The notes beneath the pieces are model-generated. The model made no database searches. It had not been told where the DNA came from and saw nothing but the letters and a program-made list of their open reading frames with translations. A DNA stretch of 64,000 bases, taken from contig NZ_JABXYU010000001.1 in the NCBI RefSeq assembly GCF_013394795.1, positions 1,736,001 to 1,800,000 of the forward strand, read 5' to 3'. Shown here piece by piece: positions 8,709-19,396 of the stretch. A program made the position numbers and the translations under genes. Every line of letters starts with the position of its first letter. Position 1 is the stretch's first letter. The DNA is from Leptotrichia sp. oral taxon 223. GTDB taxonomy: Bacteria > Fusobacteriota > Fusobacteriia > Fusobacteriales > Leptotrichiaceae.

Positions 8709-10228
8709 TTATTTTCTTCGATAATTAAGTGCCTCCAATAAATGCTCCTTTTTTATGTTTTTTTCCCCATCCAGATCTGCTATCGTTCTGGATACTTTCA
8801 ATATTTTGTCAAACACTCTGACTGACAATTTTAAATTATCAATGGCAGATTTCATAATTTCTTCACTTTCTTCGTCTATTTTACAATATTTGTTCAGCTG
8901 CTTCTTGTTCATATCCCTGTTTAAGGTATTTGAATTAAAACGTTGTTTTTGAATTTCACGGGCTTTTATTACTCTTGCTTGAATATCTTTCGATTTTTCT
9001 GATAAAGTTTCGTCAAAAATTTCGTCTTTTTTCAACTGGTGCATTTCCACATACAAATCCATTCTGTCGAGAAGCGGGCCTGAAAATTTTTTCTGGTAAC
9101 GCTTTATTTCGTACAAACTGTCGTTGCATAATGGATTATCGGGGAAATAACCGCTTGGAGTAGGATTTGAAGCAGTTATTGTAATGTTTTTTACTGGATA
9201 AGTTACACTGAAATTTGCTCTTGAAATAACGATTTTTCCATCTTCCAGCGGCTGTCTTAACGTTTCCAGAGTTTTTCCCTCAAATTCCCCTATTTCATCT
9301 AGAAAGAAGACGCCGTTTAGTGCTAATGTAATTTCTCCGACTCTGTTTGCGCACCTACTAGAGCCACTTGTGTAGCTGAATAATGGGGTGCTCTAAACGG
9401 ACGCTTGCGGATTATTGGCTCATTTTGGCTTAACATTCCTGAAATGCTGTAAATTTTGGTTGTTTCAATTATTTCTTCTTCAGGCATATCAGGTAAAATT
9501 GTGTTAAATCTCTTGGCAAGCATTGACTTGCCTGAGCCAGGATCGCCTATTAAAAATACATTATGCCCGCCAGCTGCTGCAATTTCTAAAGCTCTTTTTG
9601 CAAGGAGCTGCCCTTTCACATCTGAAAAATCAATAGTTTCATCTAAATTTTCATCTTTTTCCAATTTTGAAGTATTCTTTTCAATAGCTTTTTTACACAA
9701 TGTTTCCACATCAGTTTTTCCTTCCAGAAAATCCAGCAATTCCGTTATTTCATCAACAGGAATAATTTCCACGCCTGAAATTAGTTTTGCCTCATTATAA
9801 TTTCCCGCTGGAACGATAACGCCTTTAAAATCTGTTTCTTTTGCCAGAATTGTAGCATTTATTGCTCCATTTATTGATTTTATCTTTCCATTTAGGGAAA
9901 TTTCCCCTAAAATCAGATATTTTTTTAATATTTCTATATTTGAAATATGCCCTGTATTAGCAAGTATTCCTAAAAATATGCTCAAGTCAAAATGACTGCC
10001 TTTCTTTCTGATATTTGCAGGCGACAAATTCACCAGCACACGTCTGACAGGAAACTCAAATCCCACATTCTTAAAACAGCTCCTAATCCGTTCCTTGCTC
10101 TCGGAAATCGCTTGATCCCCCATTCCGACTATATTAAACACAGGCAGCCCTCTGGATAAATCAACTTCCACTTCCACAACATAAGTATCTACACCCATAT
10201 AGCTGCAACTAAATAAACTTATTGCCAT
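8709..10228 (-). pseudogene. comM: comM/YifB Mg-chelatase-like AAA+ helicase, split by a frameshift
   Basis: Two minus-strand frames together make a full ComM/YifB (about 506 residues). The first (10228-9323) has the N-terminal lon-protease-like region, Walker A GDPGSGKS at residues 228-235 and FRAPHYSATQVALVG. It then runs out of frame at about 9352 and stops after 301 residues. The other frame picks up at once with GANRVGEITLALNGV and FFLDEIGEF (Walker B), continuing to 8709. The family needs GGTGGCGCA where the sequence reads GGTGCGCA, so one G is missing. ComM is a branch-migration helicase that promotes natural transformation. Either a real recent inactivation or a sequence error; the downstream frame shows no other decay. 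Confidence 0.88.
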
Positions 10229-10355: not shown

Positions 10356-10793
10356 TTATTTTAAATATGCATTTAACATCCATAAATCTTTTTCGTATGT
10401 GCTGATATATTCATCAGTTAATGCAGATGTTCCGTAGTCATTTTCTTCATCAGCGGCTTCTTTTACTTCTTTTGCTAATTTTAGCATTGCTTCAAATTCT
10501 TTTTTCACATCAGCTACCGCTTCTGGAATAGAAATTTCCTTATTTTCGGCTTCCTTAATAGTTGTAACTTCCAGATAGTCTTTTAGCGTTCCTAAAGGAC
10601 GTCCTCCTATTGACAAAATTCTTTCTGCAACATCGTCAATCTGTTTATTTATCGCATCATAATATTCTTCTAATTTTTCATGTACAGTAAAGAAATCAGC
10701 ACCAACAATGTTCCAGTGGTAATTTTGAACTTTTCTGTAAAGTACATTCAAGTTAGCTAAGTAAAGATTTAATTTTTCAATTGTTTTTGACAT
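10356..10793 (-). CDS. dps: Dps-family DNA-binding ferritin-like protein
   Basis: A 145-residue Dps miniferritin, which oxidises iron with peroxide and protects DNA. The inter-subunit ferroxidase residues are visible: NYHW, then FTVHEKLEEYYD with its His, followed by the DDVAERI helix. The start at 10793 is chosen because GAGGAG lies 8 bases upstream of it; a GTG 9 bases earlier is too close to that site. It stands alone with its own strong promoter, an operator-like dyad and a terminator. Control by the PerR-like regulator at 98-514 is plausible but unproven. Confidence 0.92.
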   Translation of the reverse strand: MSKTIEKLNLYLANLNVLYRKVQNYHWNIVGADFFTVHEKLEEYYDAINKQIDDVAERILSIGGRPLGTLKDYLEVTTIKEAENKEISIPEAVADVKKEFEAMLKLAKEVKEAADEENDYGTSALTDEYISTYEKDLWMLNAYLK

Positions 10794-10825
10794 TTTTATC
10801 ACTCCTCAGTTTATAATTTATATAT

Positions 10826-10844
10826 ATTTGTATTTATTACAAAT
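10826..10844. promoter_or_regulatory. 19-bp dyad operator at the dps transcription start
   Basis: ATTTGTA-TTTAT-TACAAAT is a perfect 7-base inverted repeat with a 5-base centre. It covers the predicted +1 of the dps promoter (about 10840), the place for a repressor. The sequence differs from the classic PerR box (TTATAATnATTATAA), so the protein that binds it is unknown. Confidence 0.5.
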
Positions 10845-10846
10845 TT

Positions 10847-10875
10847 ATTGTACCAAAATATAGATAAATTGTCAA
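10847..10875 (-). promoter_or_regulatory. Strong dps promoter
   Basis: TTGACA (complement of 10870-10875), a 17-base spacer and TACAAT (complement of 10847-10852) form a near-consensus vegetative promoter, 54 bases upstream of the dps start codon. Confidence 0.8.
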
Positions 10876-11105
10876 CATATTTTTTCCTTCTTCGTTTTTA
10901 TAGTTTTTTTTAAAATTATGTTTTATAGTTTATGTGTTCATTTATAGTTTTTAGTTTAATTATAGAAACTAATTTGATTATTGTAATTTTGTGTTAAACA
11001 GGCTTAATGTGTTTTTAAAACCTAAATTGTTATTAGTTTTATATTATTTTAGAATTGGAGTAATATAATTTGTAATTTATTTAAAATAAAGAACTTTTCC
11101 ATTTT

Positions 11106-11135
11106 TTGTTACAAAGTATTTCTAAGTACTATAAA
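11106..11135 (+). promoter_or_regulatory. Candidate promoter of the PTS-aldolase-DhaKL operon
   Basis: TTGTTA (11106-11111) and TATAAA (11130-11135), spacer 18, about 120 bases before the regulator gene. No recognisable catabolite-response element was seen near it. Confidence 0.45.
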
Positions 11136-11258
11136 ATAATGGATAAAACCTATTTCCAATTAAACATGCTTCTTTCAATAAAAGTTTCAGAAGCTTAATA
11201 TTGAAATACTTAAAATCATAGGTTATATATTAAGTAGAACCTTAATTAAGGAGAGCAT

Positions 11259-13319
11259 ATGCTAAATAATAGAGAAATAAAAATGTTGGATATTTTTTCT
11301 TCTGGCGAAGAAGTTTCAATTAAGAAACTAAAAGAAAAATTTGATATTTCTGAAAGAATGGTGAGATATGATATTGAAAAAATTAATTTTGTTTTGTCGA
11401 TATTTAATATTAAACCTATATATAGAAATAAATCAGGGATTTTTAAGTTGGATAGCGATAGCAAAATAAATAAAATAAAGGATATAGTAAAAGAAGCAGA
11501 GCCTGTGACTATTGAAAAAAGAAGAAATTTAATAAAATTTTTGCTAATAACAACTGTAAAAAAACTTAATATATCCAATTTAATGGAAAAGTTTGATACA
11601 TCAAGAATTACAATTAATAGTGATTTAAATAGGATAAAAAAAGAATTTGAAGAAAAGGAGATTAAATTAAGTACAAAAAAAGGGATAATACTCGAAGGAA
11701 GAATATCAAATTTAATAAAATATAGAGTTGAAAAAATATCAGAATGCCTGAATTATTTGAAAAATACTAAAAACAAGACTATTTATGGAATAAAAATAGA
11801 AGAAATATTTAAAGAAAATTTAGGTATAGAAGAAGTAAAGACTTTAAGTGATTTTTTGAAAAAAATATTATCTAAGTTAAATTTTTCAGCTACTGATGAA
11901 AATTATAAAACATTGCTTTCCTATATTATTTTACTGCAATCCGAGAATTTTCATGAAGAAATTAATAATTTCATATGTGTTGATGGAGGGATAATAAAAG
12001 AATGGGATGAATATGACACAATAAAAAAAGAAGTAAAAAATTATGGATTAAATGAAATTTTTAAAGAACAGGATATATTTATTATAACAGATTTAGTAGT
12101 AAAAATAAGTTCTTATAATAAAGATTCTCAATTTTATGAAAATTGGATTGATTTAGATATTTTAGTAAAAAATTTGATTGAAAATATAAATAGCAGATTA
12201 AATGTGGACATATCAAAGGATAAATTATTGTTTGAATATTTGAGACAGCATCTAAATCCTTTTTTCTATAGAGTGAAAAATGAATATACATTAAATGATA
12301 AATTTATACAGGATTTAGAATTTACAAAAAATAATTTATTCTATTTAATAAAGGACTCTTTAAATATTTTGACAAATATATTAAAAAAAGATATACCTGA
12401 TAAGGAAATATTTCTGCTGACACTTCATTTTCAAGCTTCAATAGAAAGAGTTATGAATAATAACATAAAAGTAAAAAGAATAATAATTATCAGTACGCTA
12501 GGATACGGCATTTCCCAAATATTGGTAGACAATATATCTTCCTTGTTCAATGTTGAAATAGTTGCAGTAACTCCTTATTTTAAACTGAAAGAAACATTGC
12601 TTAATAATAAAAATATAGATTATATAATAACAACAATGGATATTGAAGATAAAATTTTATATGACATACCAATATTAAAGGTAAATCCAGTATTTACAAT
12701 AGAAGATAGGAAAAAAATGTTAGATGTTGGTTTTGTATCAAATAATAAAAAAGTTTTAATATCAGAATTAATCCAAATTATAGAAAAGGAGGCAAAAATA
12801 CATAATAAAGAAAAATTGATAAAAAAACTTGAAAATAAAATGAAAGGAAAGATTATAAATGATGTCGTAGACGAGGAAGAAGAAAAGGATATAATTACAG
12901 ATGAAAGCATTATTTTTAACTATGATGGTAAAAATATTGAAGAGGCAGTTGAATACACATGCAATCTTCTTGAGAAAAAAGGATACATATCAAGTTCATA
13001 TACTAAAAGTATTCTAGATGTATTGAGAAATCATACATCCTACATGATAATACATAATGGAATAATTTTACCACATTCCAAAAATAAAAATAATGTATTT
13101 AAAACTTCAGGAATTTTACTTGAATTAAAAAATAATTTTGAACTTAATGGCAATACTATAAAATACATCTTTACCTTTGCTATAAAGGATAAAGAAAAAG
13201 AATTGAACAGAGTAAGTAAAATTATAAATAAAATTTTTAAAGATGAACTGGTTGAAATAATGAAAACAAAAAATAAAGATAAAATAGTAAAATATTTTTC
13301 AAAAAATACAAATGCATAG
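11259..13319 (+). CDS. LicR/BglG-type PRD transcriptional activator with EIIB- and EIIA-like domains
   Basis: A 686-residue PTS-controlled activator. Domains in order: two DNA-binding helix-turn-helix regions (about 5-60 and 88-145), two PTS regulation domains (about 170-290 and 300-400, the second with His331 and His390), an EIIB-like domain (about 405-500) and an EIIA-like domain (about 545-686) with the phosphorylatable His606 in ILPHSK. The EIIB-like loop at 411-418 reads STLGYGIS, without the cysteine usual in such regulators. The gene starts the operon, so the protein probably controls it according to the phosphorylation state of the EII proteins encoded downstream. Specificity is unknown. 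Confidence 0.85.
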   Translation: MLNNREIKMLDIFSSGEEVSIKKLKEKFDISERMVRYDIEKINFVLSIFNIKPIYRNKSGIFKLDSDSKINKIKDIVKEAEPVTIEKRRNLIKFLLITTVKKLNISNLMEKFDTSRITINSDLNRIKKEFEEKEIKLSTKKGIILEGRISNLIKYRVEKISECLNYLKNTKNKTIYGIKIEEIFKENLGIEEVKTLSDFLKKILSKLNFSATDENYKTLLSYIILLQSENFHEEINNFICVDGGIIKEWDEYDTIKKEVKNYGLNEIFKEQDIFIITDLVVKISSYNKDSQFYENWIDLDILVKNLIENINSRLNVDISKDKLLFEYLRQHLNPFFYRVKNEYTLNDKFIQDLEFTKNNLFYLIKDSLNILTNILKKDIPDKEIFLLTLHFQASIERVMNNNIKVKRIIIISTLGYGISQILVDNISSLFNVEIVAVTPYFKLKETLLNNKNIDYIITTMDIEDKILYDIPILKVNPVFTIEDRKKMLDVGFVSNNKKVLISELIQIIEKEAKIHNKEKLIKKLENKMKGKIINDVVDEEEEKDIITDESIIFNYDGKNIEEAVEYTCNLLEKKGYISSSYTKSILDVLRNHTSYMIIHNGIILPHSKNKNNVFKTSGILLELKNNFELNGNTIKYIFTFAIKDKEKELNRVSKIINKIFKDELVEIMKTKNKDKIVKYFSKNTNA

Positions 13320-13332
13320 AAAGGAATGAGGC

Positions 13333-13788
13333 ATGAAAGATTATTTTAAAGAAGAAAATATTTTTTTGGATTTTGAAGCAAATGACAGAAATGATTTTCT
13401 TTCTAAAATAGGTAATATTTTATTTGAAAAAAAATATGTAAATAAAGGATTTTCCGATTCAATTATTGAAAGAGAAAAAAATTATCCTACAGGTTTGGAT
13501 TTTGGTGAATATAAGATTGCAATACCTCATACGAATCCTGAATTTGTTAATAAAGAGGGCATTATAGCTGTTAAGCCCCAAAAACCAATTATTTTTAGGG
13601 ATATGGGATTAAATGAAAATGATTTGGAGGTATCAGTAATATTTGTACTATTGATACAAAAGGGAGAAGAGCAAGTGAATTTATTGACAAAGTTAATGTC
13701 TTTAATGGAACAGAAGGAAGTTTATGACAGCATAAAAAATGCATCAGATAAGAAAGAAATACTAAAGATATTAAGTGAAAATTTTTAG
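13333..13788 (+). CDS. PTS EIIA component, galactitol/fructose type
   Basis: A 151-residue soluble EIIA. The active-site histidine is His66 in the AIPHTNPEF motif, typical of the mannitol/fructose-type fold used by galactitol systems. It takes phosphate from HPr and passes it to the EIIB encoded at 14094. It begins 13 bases after the regulator gene with a GAAAGGAATGAGG region as ribosome site. It is a stand-alone domain, as in gatA. The transported sugar cannot be read from it. Confidence 0.88.
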   Translation: MKDYFKEENIFLDFEANDRNDFLSKIGNILFEKKYVNKGFSDSIIEREKNYPTGLDFGEYKIAIPHTNPEFVNKEGIIAVKPQKPIIFRDMGLNENDLEVSVIFVLLIQKGEEQVNLLTKLMSLMEQKEVYDSIKNASDKKEILKILSENF

Positions 13789-13802
13789 ACAAGGTGATTA
13801 TA

Positions 13803-14066
13803 GTGATAAGTAAAATTTTAGAAGTTAAAAATAAAACAGGGTTACATGCAAGGCCTATTTCGCAAATAATAAAGACAATATCAAAATATAAATCAAAAAC
13901 TGTATTTAGAGTAGGTGATAACAAAGTAGAAAATAAAAGCGTCCTCGGTTTTTTAAAGTTAGGAGCTAAATATGGCACAAAAGTTGAAATAGAAATAGAT
14001 GGAGAAGACGAAAATGAAGTGTTAAAAGAACTGGAAAGTTTATTTTACTCAAATTTTGGAGAATAA
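13803..14066 (+). CDS. Operon-encoded HPr-family phosphocarrier
   Basis: An 87-residue HPr. GTG at 13803 is preferred as the start: AAGGTG lies 7 bases before it, and the active-site histidine in GLHARP then becomes exactly His15 as in canonical HPr; the earlier GTG at 13794 is part of the ribosome site itself. Ser46 falls in NKSVLG, also at the canonical place, so the protein could in principle receive HPr-kinase phosphorylation. An HPr inside a sugar operon suggests a dedicated phosphate donor for the EIIA next to it, or a substitute donor for the DhaK/DhaL pair encoded downstream (inference). Confidence 0.88.
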   Translation: MISKILEVKNKTGLHARPISQIIKTISKYKSKTVFRVGDNKVENKSVLGFLKLGAKYGTKVEIEIDGEDENEVLKELESLFYSNFGE

Positions 14067-14093
14067 AAAATATTAAAATTAGGAGGAATTTAT

Positions 14094-14369
14094 ATGAAAA
14101 GAATAGTTGTAGCATGTGGATCAGGAGTAGCAACATCACAGACAGTTGCTTCAAAAATTAACAGTATGCTGGAAGATGAAGGAATAAGAGCAACAGTGGA
14201 AGCAGTAGATATAAAATCGCTTGAAAGCATAATAGATCAAGTTGATGTTTATGTAACAATAGTTCCAGGTTCTCAAACTTATGACAAGCCAATGATAAAT
14301 GGAATTAAATTTTTAACAGGAATGGGAATGGCGGAAGAATTTGAAAAATTAAAAAAACTGCTAAAATAA
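14094..14369 (+). CDS. PTS EIIB component, galactitol family
   Basis: A 91-residue EIIB of the galactitol type. The phosphocysteine is Cys8 in ACGSGVATS at the very N-terminus, as in GatB. It receives phosphate from EIIA and gives it to the incoming sugar on EIIC. AGGAGG precedes the ATG. The neighbour order EIIA-HPr-EIIB-EIIC is otherwise that of a gat operon. Confidence 0.9.
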   Translation: MKRIVVACGSGVATSQTVASKINSMLEDEGIRATVEAVDIKSLESIIDQVDVYVTIVPGSQTYDKPMINGIKFLTGMGMAEEFEKLKKLLK

Positions 14370-14400
14370 TATTGGTAATAAACTTTAGGAGGTACCAAAA

Positions 14401-15738
14401 ATGTTTGGAAATATTTTAAACTATATTTTAGGATTGGGAGCCGCAATCTTTTTACCTATAATAATGATAATAATAGGATTGATAATAAAAATGAAATTCA
14501 AAAGAGCAATAATTTCAGGGCTTACATTGGGAGTTGCTTTTACGGGAATGAACGTAGTGCTAGGCTTTATGTTTGACACTATAAGTCCTGTAGCTTCAGC
14601 TTTTGTTGAAAAAACGGGTATTCAGTTAAATATAATCGATGTAGGGTGGTCACCTATGTCTGCGATTGCGTGGGCTTGGCCTTATGCCTTGTTTATGTTT
14701 CCTTTACAGATAGGAATTAATCTTTTAATGCTTATATTTAAACAAACAGATGTATTAAATGTAGATTTGTGGAATGTGTGGGGGAAAATTTTTACAGCAA
14801 CAATGGTGGCGGCAATTACAGGAAATGTTGCATTAGGTTTTGTTGCAGCGGCAATTCAGGTTATAGCGGAGTTAAAAATAGGAGAAGCTACTCAAAAAAG
14901 AACTCAGGAAATAACAGGAATACCAGGGGTTACTTGTACTCATTATATGACACTCCAATGTATAATAATGGAACCTGTAAACAAATTATTGGATTATATT
15001 CCTTTATTTAAAAAAGAAAATGCAAATGCAGATAAATTAAAAGATAAAATAGGAATTTTTGGAGATAACAGCGTTATGGGATTCATTATAGGAGGGCTTA
15101 TAGCGATTCTTGCAGGTTATTCTGTAAAAGATACGTTAAATGTGGCTATAAAAGTAGGAACAGCTCTAGTATTATTTCCTATGGTGGCTAAATTATTTAT
15201 GCAGGCTCTGGCTCCAATTGCAGATGCTGCATCAGAATTTATGAAAAATAAATTTAAAGACAGAGAAATTTATATTGGATTAGACTGGCCGTTTATGGCA
15301 GGACAATCTGAATTATGGGTAGTAGCAATATTGTTAGTTCCAATAGAACTGCTTTTGGCTATCGTGTTTTCAAAGATGGGAATAAGCAATGTGTTGCCGT
15401 TAGCAGGAATAGTAAATGTTATAGTTGTCGTACCAGCAATGATTGTTTCTAAAAAGAACTTATTAAAAATGCTAATTCTAAGTATTCTGTACACTCCAAT
15501 TTATTTATTAGTTTCCAGCAGCTTTGCGCCATTTGCTACTCAGCTTGCAAAAACGACAAAAGCGATAGAAATACCAGCAGGACAAATGATAACATATTTT
15601 GGCGTAGAAGCTCCATTTTTCAGATGGGCTATAGCAAATGGTCTAGCAGGTAGAATATCAGGAATTATAGCATTAGTATTATTTTTTGGATTATTCTACA
15701 TATTTATAAAAAATATGAAAAAGCAAATTCAGCAATAA
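14401..15738 (+). CDS. PTS EIIC permease, galactitol family
   Basis: A 445-residue polytopic membrane protein of the GatC (SgcC) EIIC family, with roughly ten hydrophobic segments. Family signs include the GWSPMSAIAWAWP stretch around residue 80 and the large cytoplasmic loop with GVTCTHYMTLQ near residue 180. It is the sugar-translocating subunit for the EIIA and EIIB encoded just upstream. AGGAGG lies 8 bases before the start. Galactitol itself is not assured: GatC-family permeases carry several polyols and pentoses, and no tagatose-pathway genes are present here. Confidence 0.9.
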   Translation: MFGNILNYILGLGAAIFLPIIMIIIGLIIKMKFKRAIISGLTLGVAFTGMNVVLGFMFDTISPVASAFVEKTGIQLNIIDVGWSPMSAIAWAWPYALFMFPLQIGINLLMLIFKQTDVLNVDLWNVWGKIFTATMVAAITGNVALGFVAAAIQVIAELKIGEATQKRTQEITGIPGVTCTHYMTLQCIIMEPVNKLLDYIPLFKKENANADKLKDKIGIFGDNSVMGFIIGGLIAILAGYSVKDTLNVAIKVGTALVLFPMVAKLFMQALAPIADAASEFMKNKFKDREIYIGLDWPFMAGQSELWVVAILLVPIELLLAIVFSKMGISNVLPLAGIVNVIVVVPAMIVSKKNLLKMLILSILYTPIYLLVSSSFAPFATQLAKTTKAIEIPAGQMITYFGVEAPFFRWAIANGLAGRISGIIALVLFFGLFYIFIKNMKKQIQQ

Positions 15739-15760
15739 AATTTTGATAGAGGTGATGTAA

Positions 15761-16420
15761 ATGTTGGAAAATTTGAAAAGGGAAGTTATAAAAGCGGCGC
15801 AGGATGGACAAAGATTAGACTTATGTAAACATAAATCAGGAAATTTCAGTATAAGGGATAAGAAAACAGGATATGTAGTGGTCACTCCATCAGGTGTAAA
15901 CAGAGAGGAATTAACTGCAGATGATATATGTGTATTAACAGTAGATGGTGAATTAATTGAAGTTAAAAATGACAGAAAACCATCAAGTGAAACAATGATG
16001 CATTTGGAAGTATATAAAGCAAGGGAAGATATAATGGCAATTGCTCACACTCATTCAAAAATGGCAACTTCCTTTGCAGTATTAAATAAACCTATACCGG
16101 CGATTATATATGAGGTTGCAACATTTGGGCTAAAGGATGCTGTTGTGCCGGTAGCGCCATATGCAAGGCCTGGAACTGTAGAACTGGCTAAAAGTGTAAT
16201 TGAACCTGTGAAAAGGGCAGATATATTTTTACTTGAAAAACATGGGGTTGTAGCCTGCGGTACAGATATGTATGAAGCTTTTTTGAGAGCACAGTATGTA
16301 GAAGAACTGGCAGAAGTTTACTATTACACTTTATTAATAAATAAAGGCAATGAACCAGACAGTTTTTCTCCAGAAGAACTGGAAAATTGGAAATACCCGG
16401 AAAAATTGGAAAAGAACTAG
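15761..16420 (+). CDS. Class II (FucA/AraD-type) ketose-phosphate aldolase or epimerase
   Basis: A 219-residue zinc aldolase of the L-fuculose-phosphate aldolase / ribulose-phosphate epimerase superfamily. Phosphate-binding SGN (26-28) and SSE (75-77) are present, with the catalytic acid Glu77. The zinc ligands are His96 and His98 (AHTHS) plus His161 (EKHG). The C-terminal segment carries the YVEELAEVYY helix typical of aldolases. In this operon it would split a ketose-1-phosphate made after EII transport into dihydroxyacetone phosphate and an aldehyde. Its substrate is unknown. It ends 16 bases before the dhaK gene. Confidence 0.85.
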   Translation: MLENLKREVIKAAQDGQRLDLCKHKSGNFSIRDKKTGYVVVTPSGVNREELTADDICVLTVDGELIEVKNDRKPSSETMMHLEVYKAREDIMAIAHTHSKMATSFAVLNKPIPAIIYEVATFGLKDAVVPVAPYARPGTVELAKSVIEPVKRADIFLLEKHGVVACGTDMYEAFLRAQYVEELAEVYYYTLLINKGNEPDSFSPEELENWKYPEKLEKN

Positions 16421-16436
16421 GGAAGGTGATTGTCTT

Positions 16437-17444
16437 ATGAAGAAAATAATAAATGAACCTGAAAATTTTGTAAAAGAAATGATAGAAGGAATAGTAGCTG
16501 CTCATAGTGATAAAATACAGTTATTAAATGATGATATTAGAGTGCTGGTAAGAAAGGATAATCCTAAAAAAAATAAAGTGGGAATTGTTACCGCAGGAGG
16601 TAGCGGACATCTTCCAACGTTTTTAGGATATGTAGGAGAAGGAATGCTTGATGGATGTGCAATAGGAAATGTATTTGCTTCACCTTCGTCACAGAAAATG
16701 CTTGATACGATAAAGGCTTGCGATTTTGGAAAAGGGGTTTTGTGTCTTTATGGAAATTATGGCGGAGATAAGATGAATTTTAATATGGCATGTGAACTGG
16801 CTGATTTTGAAGATATAAAAACTGCTAACGTATTAGTTAAAGATGATGTTGCTTCAGCGCCTTATGAAAAAAAAGATACAAGACGAGGCGTAGCAGGAAT
16901 GCTATATGCTTATAAAATCGCAGGAGCGGCTGCAGATGAAGGATTGGATTTGGAAGAGGTTGCTCAAATCACTCAGCAGGCTTTGGAAAATATAAAAACA
17001 ATGGGAGTGGCTCTTTCCCCATGCATTGTTCCTGAAGTTGGAAAACCTACTTTTAGTATAGAAGACAATAAAATAGAAATAGGCATGGGAATACACGGAG
17101 AGCAAGGTATCGAAGTAAGGGAAATGCTAAAGGCAGATGAAATAGCAGATTTAATATTTTCCAAGATAAATGAAGAATTGGAACTGAAATCAGAAGATGA
17201 AGTTTCTGTAACTGTAAATGGATTGGGTGCAACTCCTTTAGAAGAACTTTACATTGTATATAACAGAATTTATAAAATTTTAAAAGAAAAAAATGTAAAA
17301 ATAATAAAACCACATATAGGAGAATTTGCTACTTCTATGGAAATGGCGGGATTATCAATAACAATTTTTAAATTGAATGAGGAAACTAAAAGATTATTAT
17401 TGAAAGAAGCAATTACACCGTTTTATACTAATGTGAATAAGTAA
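16437..17444 (+). CDS. dhaK: Dihydroxyacetone kinase subunit DhaK
   Basis: A 335-residue DhaK, which binds dihydroxyacetone or a related short ketose as a hemiaminal with an active-site histidine. That residue is His220 in GIHGEQGIE; the GGSGHLP loop (54-60) is the second substrate-contact region. The start at 16437 is chosen because GGAAGGTG lies just before it and the upstream part of the frame overlaps the aldolase gene. The kinase needs DhaL as the ADP-binding partner, encoded next. No DhaM gene is in the operon, so the phosphate source is open: the operon HPr, a DhaM elsewhere, or ATP directly. Confidence 0.9.
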   Translation: MKKIINEPENFVKEMIEGIVAAHSDKIQLLNDDIRVLVRKDNPKKNKVGIVTAGGSGHLPTFLGYVGEGMLDGCAIGNVFASPSSQKMLDTIKACDFGKGVLCLYGNYGGDKMNFNMACELADFEDIKTANVLVKDDVASAPYEKKDTRRGVAGMLYAYKIAGAAADEGLDLEEVAQITQQALENIKTMGVALSPCIVPEVGKPTFSIEDNKIEIGMGIHGEQGIEVREMLKADEIADLIFSKINEELELKSEDEVSVTVNGLGATPLEELYIVYNRIYKILKEKNVKIIKPHIGEFATSMEMAGLSITIFKLNEETKRLLLKEAITPFYTNVNK

Positions 17445-17465
17445 TTTCAGGAAGGACAGGCAGTT

Positions 17466-18110
17466 ATGGATATAAATGATGTAAAATTAATTACAGAAAA
17501 TGTACTCAAGTTAGTAAAGGAAAATAGAGATTATTTACTTGATTTGGACAGCCAATTTGGAGATGGAGACTTGGGAATATCAATGGTTCAAGGATTTTCC
17601 GGATTAAAAGATTATTTAGAAACTTCTAAAGAAAAAGATTTAGGGAAATTATTTTTTAAGATGGGAATGATCTTTAATGAATCAGCTCCTTCGTCATTGG
17701 GAACGATTATTTCATTCTGGCTATTAGGAATAGGTGGAAGCTTGAAAGGAAAAGAGAATGCGGATAAAAATGATATGAAAATAGCATTGGAAAATGGGAT
17801 TAGCAAGTTAAAGGAAAGAGCAAATTCAAAGGAAAACGAGAAAACAATCCTAGATTCATTGTCTCCTGCCGCAAAAGCTTTTCAGAAAAATACAGATGAG
17901 AAAAAAACAGTATTAGAAATTTTAAAAGAAGCAAGTAATGCTGCGTCAAAGGGAAGTGAAGCAACAAAAAATATGACGGCAGTTCATGGAAGAGCGGCAT
18001 ACCATGGAGAAAAAACAATAGGGCATATAGATGGAGGTTCTTATGTTGGCAAGCTGATATTTGAGGGAATTTATAATTACTATAAAGAAAAGGATGAAAA
18101 GCTGTATTAG
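17466..18110 (+). CDS. dhaL: Dihydroxyacetone kinase subunit DhaL
   Basis: A 214-residue DhaL, the nucleotide-binding subunit of dihydroxyacetone kinase. The magnesium-binding motif is DLDSQFGDGDLG (residues 26-37), and the later MTAVHGRAAYHG segment is the conserved nucleotide-cap region. In PTS-type systems DhaL holds an ADP that is re-phosphorylated by DhaM; in ATP-type enzymes the same domain exchanges ATP. The sequence alone does not decide between these. It is the last gene of the operon, followed by two terminators. Confidence 0.9.
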   Translation: MDINDVKLITENVLKLVKENRDYLLDLDSQFGDGDLGISMVQGFSGLKDYLETSKEKDLGKLFFKMGMIFNESAPSSLGTIISFWLLGIGGSLKGKENADKNDMKIALENGISKLKERANSKENEKTILDSLSPAAKAFQKNTDEKKTVLEILKEASNAASKGSEATKNMTAVHGRAAYHGEKTIGHIDGGSYVGKLIFEGIYNYYKEKDEKLY

Positions 18111-18178
18111 GTAAAAAAGACAAGGCAAAATTAACATTTATAAAGACTTCCTTAAATTTTTCGTTTTCATTTTAGTGT

Positions 18179-18230
18179 ACTGGCTTTCTTAGGTAAAAAT
18201 GTATCTTAGAAAGTCAGTATTCTTTTTTTT
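18179..18230 (+). terminator. Terminator of the PTS-aldolase-DhaKL operon
   Basis: ACTGGCTTTCTTAGGTA at 18179 pairs with the TATCTTAGAAAGTCAGT that ends at 18218, with an A-rich loop, and is followed by TCTTTTTTTT. Confidence 0.85.
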
Positions 18231-18326
18231 GCAGCCTTTTAGGAAAGCAATATAAATTGAATTATAAAATAGGACATATTGTCAGGTCAAGTGCAGAAAA
18301 AATAAAAATAATATAAAGTATTTTTA

Positions 18327-18360
18327 AAAGAGCAGAGATTTTTCCGCTCTTTAATTTTTT
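18327..18360 (+). terminator. Second hairpin terminator after dhaL
   Basis: AAAGAGC (18327-18333) and GCTCTTT (18346-18352) form a perfect 7-base stem followed by AATTTTTT. It may be a backup for the terminator at 18179. Confidence 0.65.
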
Positions 18361-18544
18361 ATGTTATAGAGTTTCAAAAACCATATTCTTCTGTTTAACT
18401 TCTTTTTTTCTTGACATAGCAGCAATATATCAAATTTTTAATTGATTTTAAAGATAGAAATAGTTTATTAAAAAAGTAGAAAAATACAAGGAATGGGTGT
18501 ATAATAGGAGAAAACAAAAAATTAATTTGAAAGGGATGAAATTA

Positions 18545-19396
18545 ATGAAGGAAAAAACTGGGTTAGTATTGGAAGGTGGAGGACTTCGGGGGATATTTAC
18601 GGCAGGGGTGCTGGATTTCTTTTTGGAAAAAAATATTGAATTTGATAATTGCATAGGGGTGTCTGCGGGAGCTTGTCATGCCTGCAGCTATTTGGCGAAA
18701 CAGCATAAGAGGGCGTTTAATGTGTCTGTTGACTATCTGGATGACAAAAGATACTGCACGCTTTATAGCTTGCTTAAAACAGGGGATTTATTTGATGTGG
18801 ATTTAGTTTATAATGAGATTCCGAATAAACTGAATCCGATTGACAACAAAACATTTATGAAAAATAAGACAAAATTTCAGGTGGTAATTACAAATTGTGA
18901 AACTGGGGAGGCGGAATATCCTGAAGTCAAAGATTTTGACAAGGATACAGTTTATGTAAGGGCTTCAAGTTCTTTGCCATTACTTGCCAGAATGGTTAAT
19001 ATTAATGGAAATGTTTATCTGGATGGTGGAGTTTCTGATTCAATACCGATTAAAAAGTCCATGGAAAATGGAAATACAAAAAATGTAGTTGTCTTGACAC
19101 GTGATAAAAGTTATAGAAAGAAGCAAAGTGCATTGGGTAAAATTACTGGGATAAGATATAAAAAGTTTCCTAAATTTGTAGAACTTATGAATACAAGATA
19201 TATTCGATATAATAAAGTGCTTGATTACATTGATGAGCTGGAGGCAAAAGGGGAGATTTTTGTGATTCGTCCAGAAGTGGAACTAACGCTTGGGAGAATT
19301 GAGAAAAATAAGAAGAAACTTTTGGAAGTGTACAATATTGGCTATGAAACAGCGAAAAAAAATTATGAAAATTTGAAAAAATATTTGGAAGGGTAA
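18545..19396 (+). CDS. Patatin-like phospholipase
   Basis: A 283-residue cytoplasmic patatin/RssA-type lipid acyl hydrolase. The oxyanion loop is GGGLRG (11-16), the nucleophile is Ser40 in GVSAG and the catalytic aspartate is Asp160 in DGG, so the Ser-Asp dyad is complete. The start at 18545 is preferred: AAAGGGATG lies at proper distance, and the frame upstream runs through the probable -10 box. There is no signal peptide. It precedes an acyltransferase-like gene and a zinc-ribbon membrane protein in the same direction, which suggests a shared lipid function (inference), although a terminator separates the first two. Confidence 0.88.
   Translation: MKEKTGLVLEGGGLRGIFTAGVLDFFLEKNIEFDNCIGVSAGACHACSYLAKQHKRAFNVSVDYLDDKRYCTLYSLLKTGDLFDVDLVYNEIPNKLNPIDNKTFMKNKTKFQVVITNCETGEAEYPEVKDFDKDTVYVRASSSLPLLARMVNINGNVYLDGGVSDSIPIKKSMENGNTKNVVVLTRDKSYRKKQSALGKITGIRYKKFPKFVELMNTRYIRYNKVLDYIDELEAKGEIFVIRPEVELTLGRIEKNKKKLLEVYNIGYETAKKNYENLKKYLEG

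Follow-up and report, generated by a model that had tools for sequence, protein, structure and literature searches.

Organisation and proposed function of the operon

Which sugar is broken down by a gene cluster that joins a phosphotransferase system (PTS) to a class II aldolase and to the DhaK and DhaL subunits of a dihydroxyacetone kinase, with no DhaM? Such a cluster lies at positions 11259–18110 of the 64,000-nucleotide stretch of the Leptotrichia sp. oral taxon 223 genome analysed here (the window), where eight genes follow one another nearly end to end on the forward strand. A preliminary description of this DNA had recognised a self-contained, eight-gene catabolic operon that lacks DhaM and is not a galactitol route, and these points were borne out: all eight genes are present, every product scores above its Pfam cut-off, and none of them is a DhaM. 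The spacers between the genes are only 5–31 bases long, and a 456-base AT-rich gap lies 5′ of the first gene. Catalytic motifs are intact in EIIA, EIIB, HPr, DhaK, DhaL and the aldolase. The grouping is not due to chance, because two further genera of the family have the genes in the same order.

We propose a pathway for the operon that we consider to have an even chance of being correct. Enzyme I (EI) and HPr would relay phosphate to EIIA and EIIB, and EIIC would import a rare ketose, probably a ketohexose, with phosphorylation at C1. The FucA-like aldolase would then cleave the ketose-1-phosphate to dihydroxyacetone phosphate (DHAP) and a hydroxy-aldehyde, most likely D-glyceraldehyde, and DhaK–DhaL would act without DhaM as an ATP-driven triokinase, yielding glyceraldehyde-3-phosphate. 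The PRD-type regulator would respond to how far the PTS proteins are phosphorylated. The predicted order of steps is that of the human Hers pathway (ketohexokinase, aldolase B and triokinase/FMN cyclase, TKFC), from which the operon differs in using a PTS for the first step, a zinc-dependent class II instead of a class I aldolase, and separate DhaK and DhaL subunits. Human triokinase is a fused DhaKL homologue that phosphorylates D-glyceraldehyde with ATP (PMC6429413). Should the proposal hold, it would mean that the human fructose-1-phosphate scheme also operates in bacteria, a PTS taking the part of the sugar kinase. Cleavage of a ketose-1-phosphate to DHAP and an aldehyde had been the first alternative of the preliminary description, and the comparisons below favour it; as to the substrate, we found no paper in the open-access literature that assigns one to the operon, and searches of that literature that combined DhaKL with aldolase and PTS, or that were directed at erythrulose kinase or fabV plasmid modules, returned nothing on it.

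The aldolase resembles enzymes acting on ketose-1-phosphates

The aldolase gene (15761–16420, forward strand; PF00596, Aldolase_II) encodes a FucA-like protein of a distinct subfamily. It has the features of a class II (FucA/AraD) enzyme, namely the three zinc histidines and the catalytic Glu/Asp, which correspond to H92, H94, H155 and E73 of FucA. The equivalents of FucA Asn29, Gly44, Ser71, Ser72 and Tyr113, the phosphate pocket included, are also kept, and the AraD lysine is absent (TPSG in place of KPSG). No tyrosine stands at the place aligned with the C-terminal Tyr209 of FucA, where a conserved W-x-Y-P motif is found, and the protein scores 125 bits against the L-fuculose-1-phosphate aldolase equivalog TIGR01086, below its cut-off of 400. 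We predict from these residues that it is a ketose-1-phosphate aldolase. The subfamily is rare, with members above the thresholds used in 7 of 391 Clostridia genomes and in 3 of 395 genomes of the class of Breznakia. A defence role found no support, as the aldolase gave no PADLOC match.

A phylogenetic tree and gene neighbourhoods placed relatives of the aldolase in two genomes (G718 and G826) next to MtnK and MtnA. Both of these proteins exceed their equivalog cut-offs in G826, where the cluster also holds a lone EIIC that is 57% identical to the operon EIIC. The association, seen in Clostridia, of related aldolases and a related EIIC with MtnK and MtnA points to a ketose-1-phosphate intermediate. 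DhaKL is absent from both clusters, as expected if the aldehyde formed there carries no hydroxyl group. The reference for the MtnK–MtnA route is the DHAP shunt (PMC10986504), which serves 5-deoxyribose and methylthioribose salvage (MtnK–MtnA–Ald2) and uses a related class II aldolase on a ketose-1-phosphate; the operon differs in its PTS uptake and in its added DhaKL, the latter implying a hydroxylated aldehyde. Within the operon, the only part of the genome searched for them, neither MtnK nor MtnA lies beside the aldolase. Plain 5-deoxyribose salvage was rejected, since it would need MtnK or MtnA and its acetaldehyde product requires no kinase. In a Clostridia genome (L227, 3671–8115) MtnK, MtnA, EIIC and aldolase genes lie together; its GAT-type EIIC has no EIIA or EIIB and is perhaps a stand-alone 5-deoxypentose transporter.

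DhaK and DhaL belong to a clade without adjacent DhaM

The DhaK gene (16437–17444, forward strand; PF02733, 395 bits) has an open reading frame that could begin at 16350, the conserved start being at 16437. It is followed by the DhaL gene (17466–18110, forward strand; PF02734, 145 bits). DhaK, which bears the motif GSGHLP, is the predicted triose-binding subunit of the kinase, and DhaL the predicted subunit for ATP. DhaK residues H58, D111 and H220 and DhaL residues D28, D33 and D35 are invariant, so that the hemiaminal histidine, the acid/base residues and the three magnesium aspartates of the Dak1/Dak2 superfamily are all present. The subunits are thus homologous to those of the PTS-dependent DhaKLM kinases and share their catalytic histidines and magnesium aspartates, but they differ in lacking DhaM and in falling below both PTS-type equivalog cut-offs. 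DhaK scores 385 bits against TIGR02363 (cut-off 406) and 430 bits against PRK14479, a model of fused kinases, and DhaL falls marginally short of TIGR02365 (136.3 bits, cut-off 138.3). The GDGDHG and GGASGPLYG motifs of PTS-type DhaL are replaced by GDGDLG and APSSLGT.

A DhaK tree was built from 80 loci of a bacterial and archaeal species collection, together with those of Fusobacteriota and E. coli. The operon DhaK falls in a clade marked by the motif GSGH[L/F]P (37 rows, SH-aLRT 96), separate from the PTS-dependent enzymes, which has no adjacent DhaM of its own. DhaL partners of this clade carry GDGD[L/T/M]G and miss the GGASG loop, whereas in a motif survey most DhaL proteins of the GDxDHG plus GGASG type had DhaM next door. 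Of the 33 GSGH[L/F]P DhaK genes, one has DhaM within 6 kb, as against 34 of 70 others; in that one case it belongs to a second dhaKLM set. At the level of whole genomes, 15 with the clade were compared: DhaM went undetected in 9 of them, Breznakia (G098) among these, and one more held only a sub-threshold fragment; EI went undetected in three genomes. Relatives that lack DhaM or EI make ATP the likely phosphate donor for DhaKL, as it is in fused kinases. The statement in the preliminary description that PTS-type DhaL requires DhaM finds no support here: this DhaL is of another sequence type.

The neighbourhoods of the clade also suggest what the kinase acts on. Of the 33 GSGH[L/F]P DhaK genes, 14 have a class II, pyruvate-type or KDPG aldolase, or MtnA, at a distance of up to 6 kb, compared with 3 of the 70 others. 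The product shared by the routes of these neighbours is an aldehyde, which links DhaKL to an aldehyde substrate. If so, a large DhaKL clade that is usually annotated as PTS dihydroxyacetone kinase would consist of ATP-driven hydroxy-aldehyde kinases.

In other DhaKL clades the neighbouring genes encode RpiB and dehydrogenases, which would suit tetrulose phosphate pathways, and the operon DhaKL might likewise phosphorylate a ketotetrose in a polyol pathway, in the manner of an erythrulose kinase, with the aldolase in a separate branch. This arrangement seems improbable: neither the operon nor its immediate surroundings, in this genome or in the other carriers, contain a dehydrogenase, RpiB or triose-isomerase-like gene, and the operon DhaK does not share a clade with the RpiB-linked DhaK of Sebaldella-like genomes.

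Inspection by eye showed two further settings of DhaL–DhaK pairs. In Sebaldella-like genomes (L053, 9630–12627; L055, 7793–10779) they lie near hexulose-6-phosphate synthase/6-phospho-3-hexuloisomerase-like genes and a mannose-type PTS. In Fusobacterium-like genomes (L096, 9234–12137; L097, 7833–10821) they lie, without DhaM, near LsrF-like and LsrG-like genes, possibly as an alternative kinase in AI-2-like processing.

Position of the phosphate on the aldolase substrate

The aldolase and the kinase could also be connected in the opposite sense. A ketose-5- or ketose-6-phosphate would be cleaved to free dihydroxyacetone and an aldehyde phosphate (e.g. glyceraldehyde-3-phosphate), and DhaKL would then convert dihydroxyacetone to DHAP with ATP. 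We regard this as a real but clearly minor possibility. Within the aldolase family, AraD-type enzymes handle substrates with a distal phosphate; the kinases of the DhaKL family classically act on dihydroxyacetone, and the hemiaminal histidine of DhaK is kept. Against this stand the FucA-like pocket and the missing AraD lysine, as well as the nearest pathway-informative relatives of the aldolase, which sit with MtnK–MtnA and are fed with ketose-1-phosphate. Furthermore, the DhaK clade recurs near pyruvate-type aldolases, which release an aldehyde, rather than dihydroxyacetone, as their second product.

The same products as in this distal-phosphate route would arise if a PfkB-type kinase acted before cleavage. 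This is presumably the case for lmo2093–lmo2099 of Listeria monocytogenes, an operon with PTS, aldolase and 1-phosphofructokinase-type genes (PMC3721983). It resembles the Leptotrichia operon in its PRD-type regulator, GAT-type EIIA, EIIB and EIIC and FucA-like aldolase, and differs in that a PfkB-type kinase (lmo2095) replaces DhaKL. A comparable operon with PTS, aldolase and 1-phosphofructokinase-type genes is present in E. faecium, and we count the existence of both operons in favour of the pathway proposed above.

Several points weigh against ketose-1-phosphate cleavage followed by an ATP-driven triokinase. Most pocket residues are common to AraD-type enzymes as well, so that motifs cannot settle between a C1 and a distal phosphate, and the Tyr113 equivalent is Phe in the aldolase of the related operon in G028. 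Dihydroxyacetone is preferred by DhaK of the E. coli type, which favours release of free dihydroxyacetone. The significance of the proximity of DhaK to aldolases or MtnA (p = 4e-6) is only indicative, as the loci are related and not independent, and the genomes in which DhaM or EI went undetected are of unstated completeness, several being drafts. Finally, the second DhaKL pair that accompanies the operon in three lineages (Breznakia, the Clostridia genome G624 and enterobacterial plasmids) is not explained by the scheme.

An orphan DhaM-like gene and the operon HPr

A DhaM encoded elsewhere might serve the operon, and a search of the genome did reveal a DhaM-like gene (contig G000:C4, about 339436–339855; L003, 1474–1893). 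Its product scores 83 bits against TIGR02364, below the cut-off of 98; its VVVSHS histidine and DMGSS motif are intact. The gene lies in the rimM/trmD locus, between the gene for a 187-aa protein and rimM. Of the 13 genomes of the genus, 10 have this type by profile search, and only that of oral taxon 223 has DhaK; synteny of the DhaM-like gene was confirmed in G006, G007, G017 and G028. In Leptotrichiaceae the gene (further loci L188, L189, L190 and L191) keeps this place also in genomes that have no DhaK.

Such a protein could phosphorylate the DhaL-bound nucleotide in trans and make the kinase PTS-driven. The intact histidine and DMGSS motifs would allow this, and each of the three genera with the syntenic operon also has the gene. 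We nevertheless think it unlikely, for the gene is conserved in congeners without any DhaK, and Breznakia has the same operon gene set and no DhaM. The DhaM-like protein is 64% identical to its counterpart in the sister genus, compared with 78–97% for the operon proteins, and in the Sebaldella-like genome G026 the rimM/trmD locus holds a full dhaKLM–glpK set, which gives the orphan the look of a relict. Most simply, it is what is left of an older dhaKLM set and not a partner of the operon, a role rejected on the ground that its presence is not linked to that of DhaK. Apart from the operon DhaL, Dak2 matches a single frame of the genome, which is 837 aa long and YloV/FakA-like by size.

The operon HPr, which starts with GTG (13794–14066, forward strand; PF00381; TIGR01003, 81 bits, over the cut-off), has GLHARP at its active site and KSVLG at the regulatory serine, and the genome has two other HPr genes. 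The preliminary description had suggested a phosphate relay in which this private HPr stands in for DhaM, passing phosphate straight to DhaL-ADP. HPr genes do occur in the operons of G000 (the present genome), of G017 and, at another position, of enterobacterial plasmids; E. coli DhaM contains an HPr-like domain, and the operon HPr matches PRK11377 at 38 bits. Such a relay is nonetheless very improbable. In DhaM itself it is the EIIA-type domain, not the HPr domain, that donates to DhaL, and half of the lineages have no HPr in the operon (the syntenic operon of G028, Breznakia and G624). The two operon HPr types share 29% identity and differ in position, and look independently recruited. We hold it similarly doubtful that phosphoenolpyruvate is the sole phosphate source for both uptake and the second kinase step, with DhaKL driven either by the operon HPr or by the orphan DhaM-like protein.

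PTS components and the identity of the sugar

The first gene of the operon (11259–13319, forward strand) encodes a PRD-type transcriptional regulator with PF08279 (HTH_11), PF00874 (PRD) and a C-terminal EIIA domain (PF00359, motif LPHS); its orthologues are 78% identical in G017 and 37% in G028. The PTS proper consists of a fructose/galactitol-type EIIA (13333–13788; PF00359, 114 bits; active-site motif IPHT), a galactitol-like EIIB (14094–14369; PF02302; phospho-cysteine motif ACGSGVATS) and a GAT-family EIIC (14401–15738; PF03611, 246 bits), all on the forward strand. These GAT-type components are shared with the galactitol pathway (gatYZABCD). Galactitol catabolism was rejected, as EIIC reaches only 292 bits against the galactitol EIIC model (cut-off 542) and the operon lacks the GatD dehydrogenase, tagatose-6-phosphate kinase and a GatYZ-type aldolase. 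In a tree of EIIC proteins, a class II aldolase gene adjoins all 10 members of the clade of the operon EIIC, and the EIIC linked to GatD falls outside it. The reference in this tree was an EIIC encoded beside a GatD-like dehydrogenase (L177), because gatC of MG1655 is a pseudogene and could not be used.

FucA and ribulose-1-phosphate aldolases act with 3R,4R stereochemistry. Together with a link to ribo-configured sugars this would fit D-allulose (D-ribo-2-hexulose), our best single guess for the sugar and a tentative one. An unassigned galactitol-type PTS is also present in a published Sneathia genome, from a strain that ferments no galactose, fructose, mannose or sucrose (PMC3535699).

Horizontal acquisition and occurrence in other bacteria

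The operon is a recent horizontal gain. In three close congeners (G014, G007 and G008) the site is empty, and about 100 bases stand in place of window positions 10885–18447, which delimits an insertion of about 7.5 kb. The inserted block is 87.2% identical in nucleotide sequence to that of G017, a genome of another genus, over 7017 bases (window 11079–18091), compared with 70.3% for the rimM/trmD locus of the same pair of genomes. Both the empty sites and this difference in identity indicate that the gain was recent. A search of the insertion borders gave no direct repeat of more than 9 bases.

Within the family, the same operon occurs in G017 (proteins 78–97% identical) and, without HPr, in G028 (37–82%). 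Further afield, Breznakia pachnodae (L132) and G624 (L225) combine EIIA–EIIB–EIIC, a PRD regulator, an aldolase (58–61%) and DhaKL with the second DhaKL pair. The same components are carried by conjugative plasmids of Klebsiella, E. coli, Citrobacter and Enterobacter (e.g. NZ_CP027125; aldolase 54% and DhaK 54% identical), again without DhaM. The plasmid operon differs in its gene order (EIIA–EIIB–EIIC–PRD–aldolase–DhaK–DhaL–HPr, with HPr last) and in the fabV gene and second, divergent dhaKL pair that adjoin it. At least 80% of the plasmid module is present in 38 plasmid records; it was found in 8 of 5426 E. coli genomes, always on plasmids, and a C. freundii plasmid carries an 83.5% variant. 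Under the proposed pathway, the module would add a usable sugar to clinical Enterobacteriaceae, a rare ketose that serves as a sweetener, such as allulose, being a candidate.

On the operon-bearing plasmids, the fabV (enoyl-ACP reductase) gene and the second dhaKL pair (L222, 12789–13982 and 14200–15835) lie between chromosomal-looking ilv genes, which suggests an island captured onto IncN-type plasmids.

Flanking features of the window

No Rfam match for an RNA element was obtained in window positions 10700–18700. Downstream of DhaL, an imperfect stem (ACTGGCTTTCT / AGAAAGTCAGT) followed by a run of T residues (18178–18230, forward strand), read directly from the sequence, is a probable intrinsic terminator, for which the terminator scanner gave no entry. 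Upstream of the operon, a ComM/YifB-like gene on the reverse strand (8709–10228) is divided between two open reading frames (9323–10228 and 8709–9116) and may be a pseudogene or contain a frameshift.

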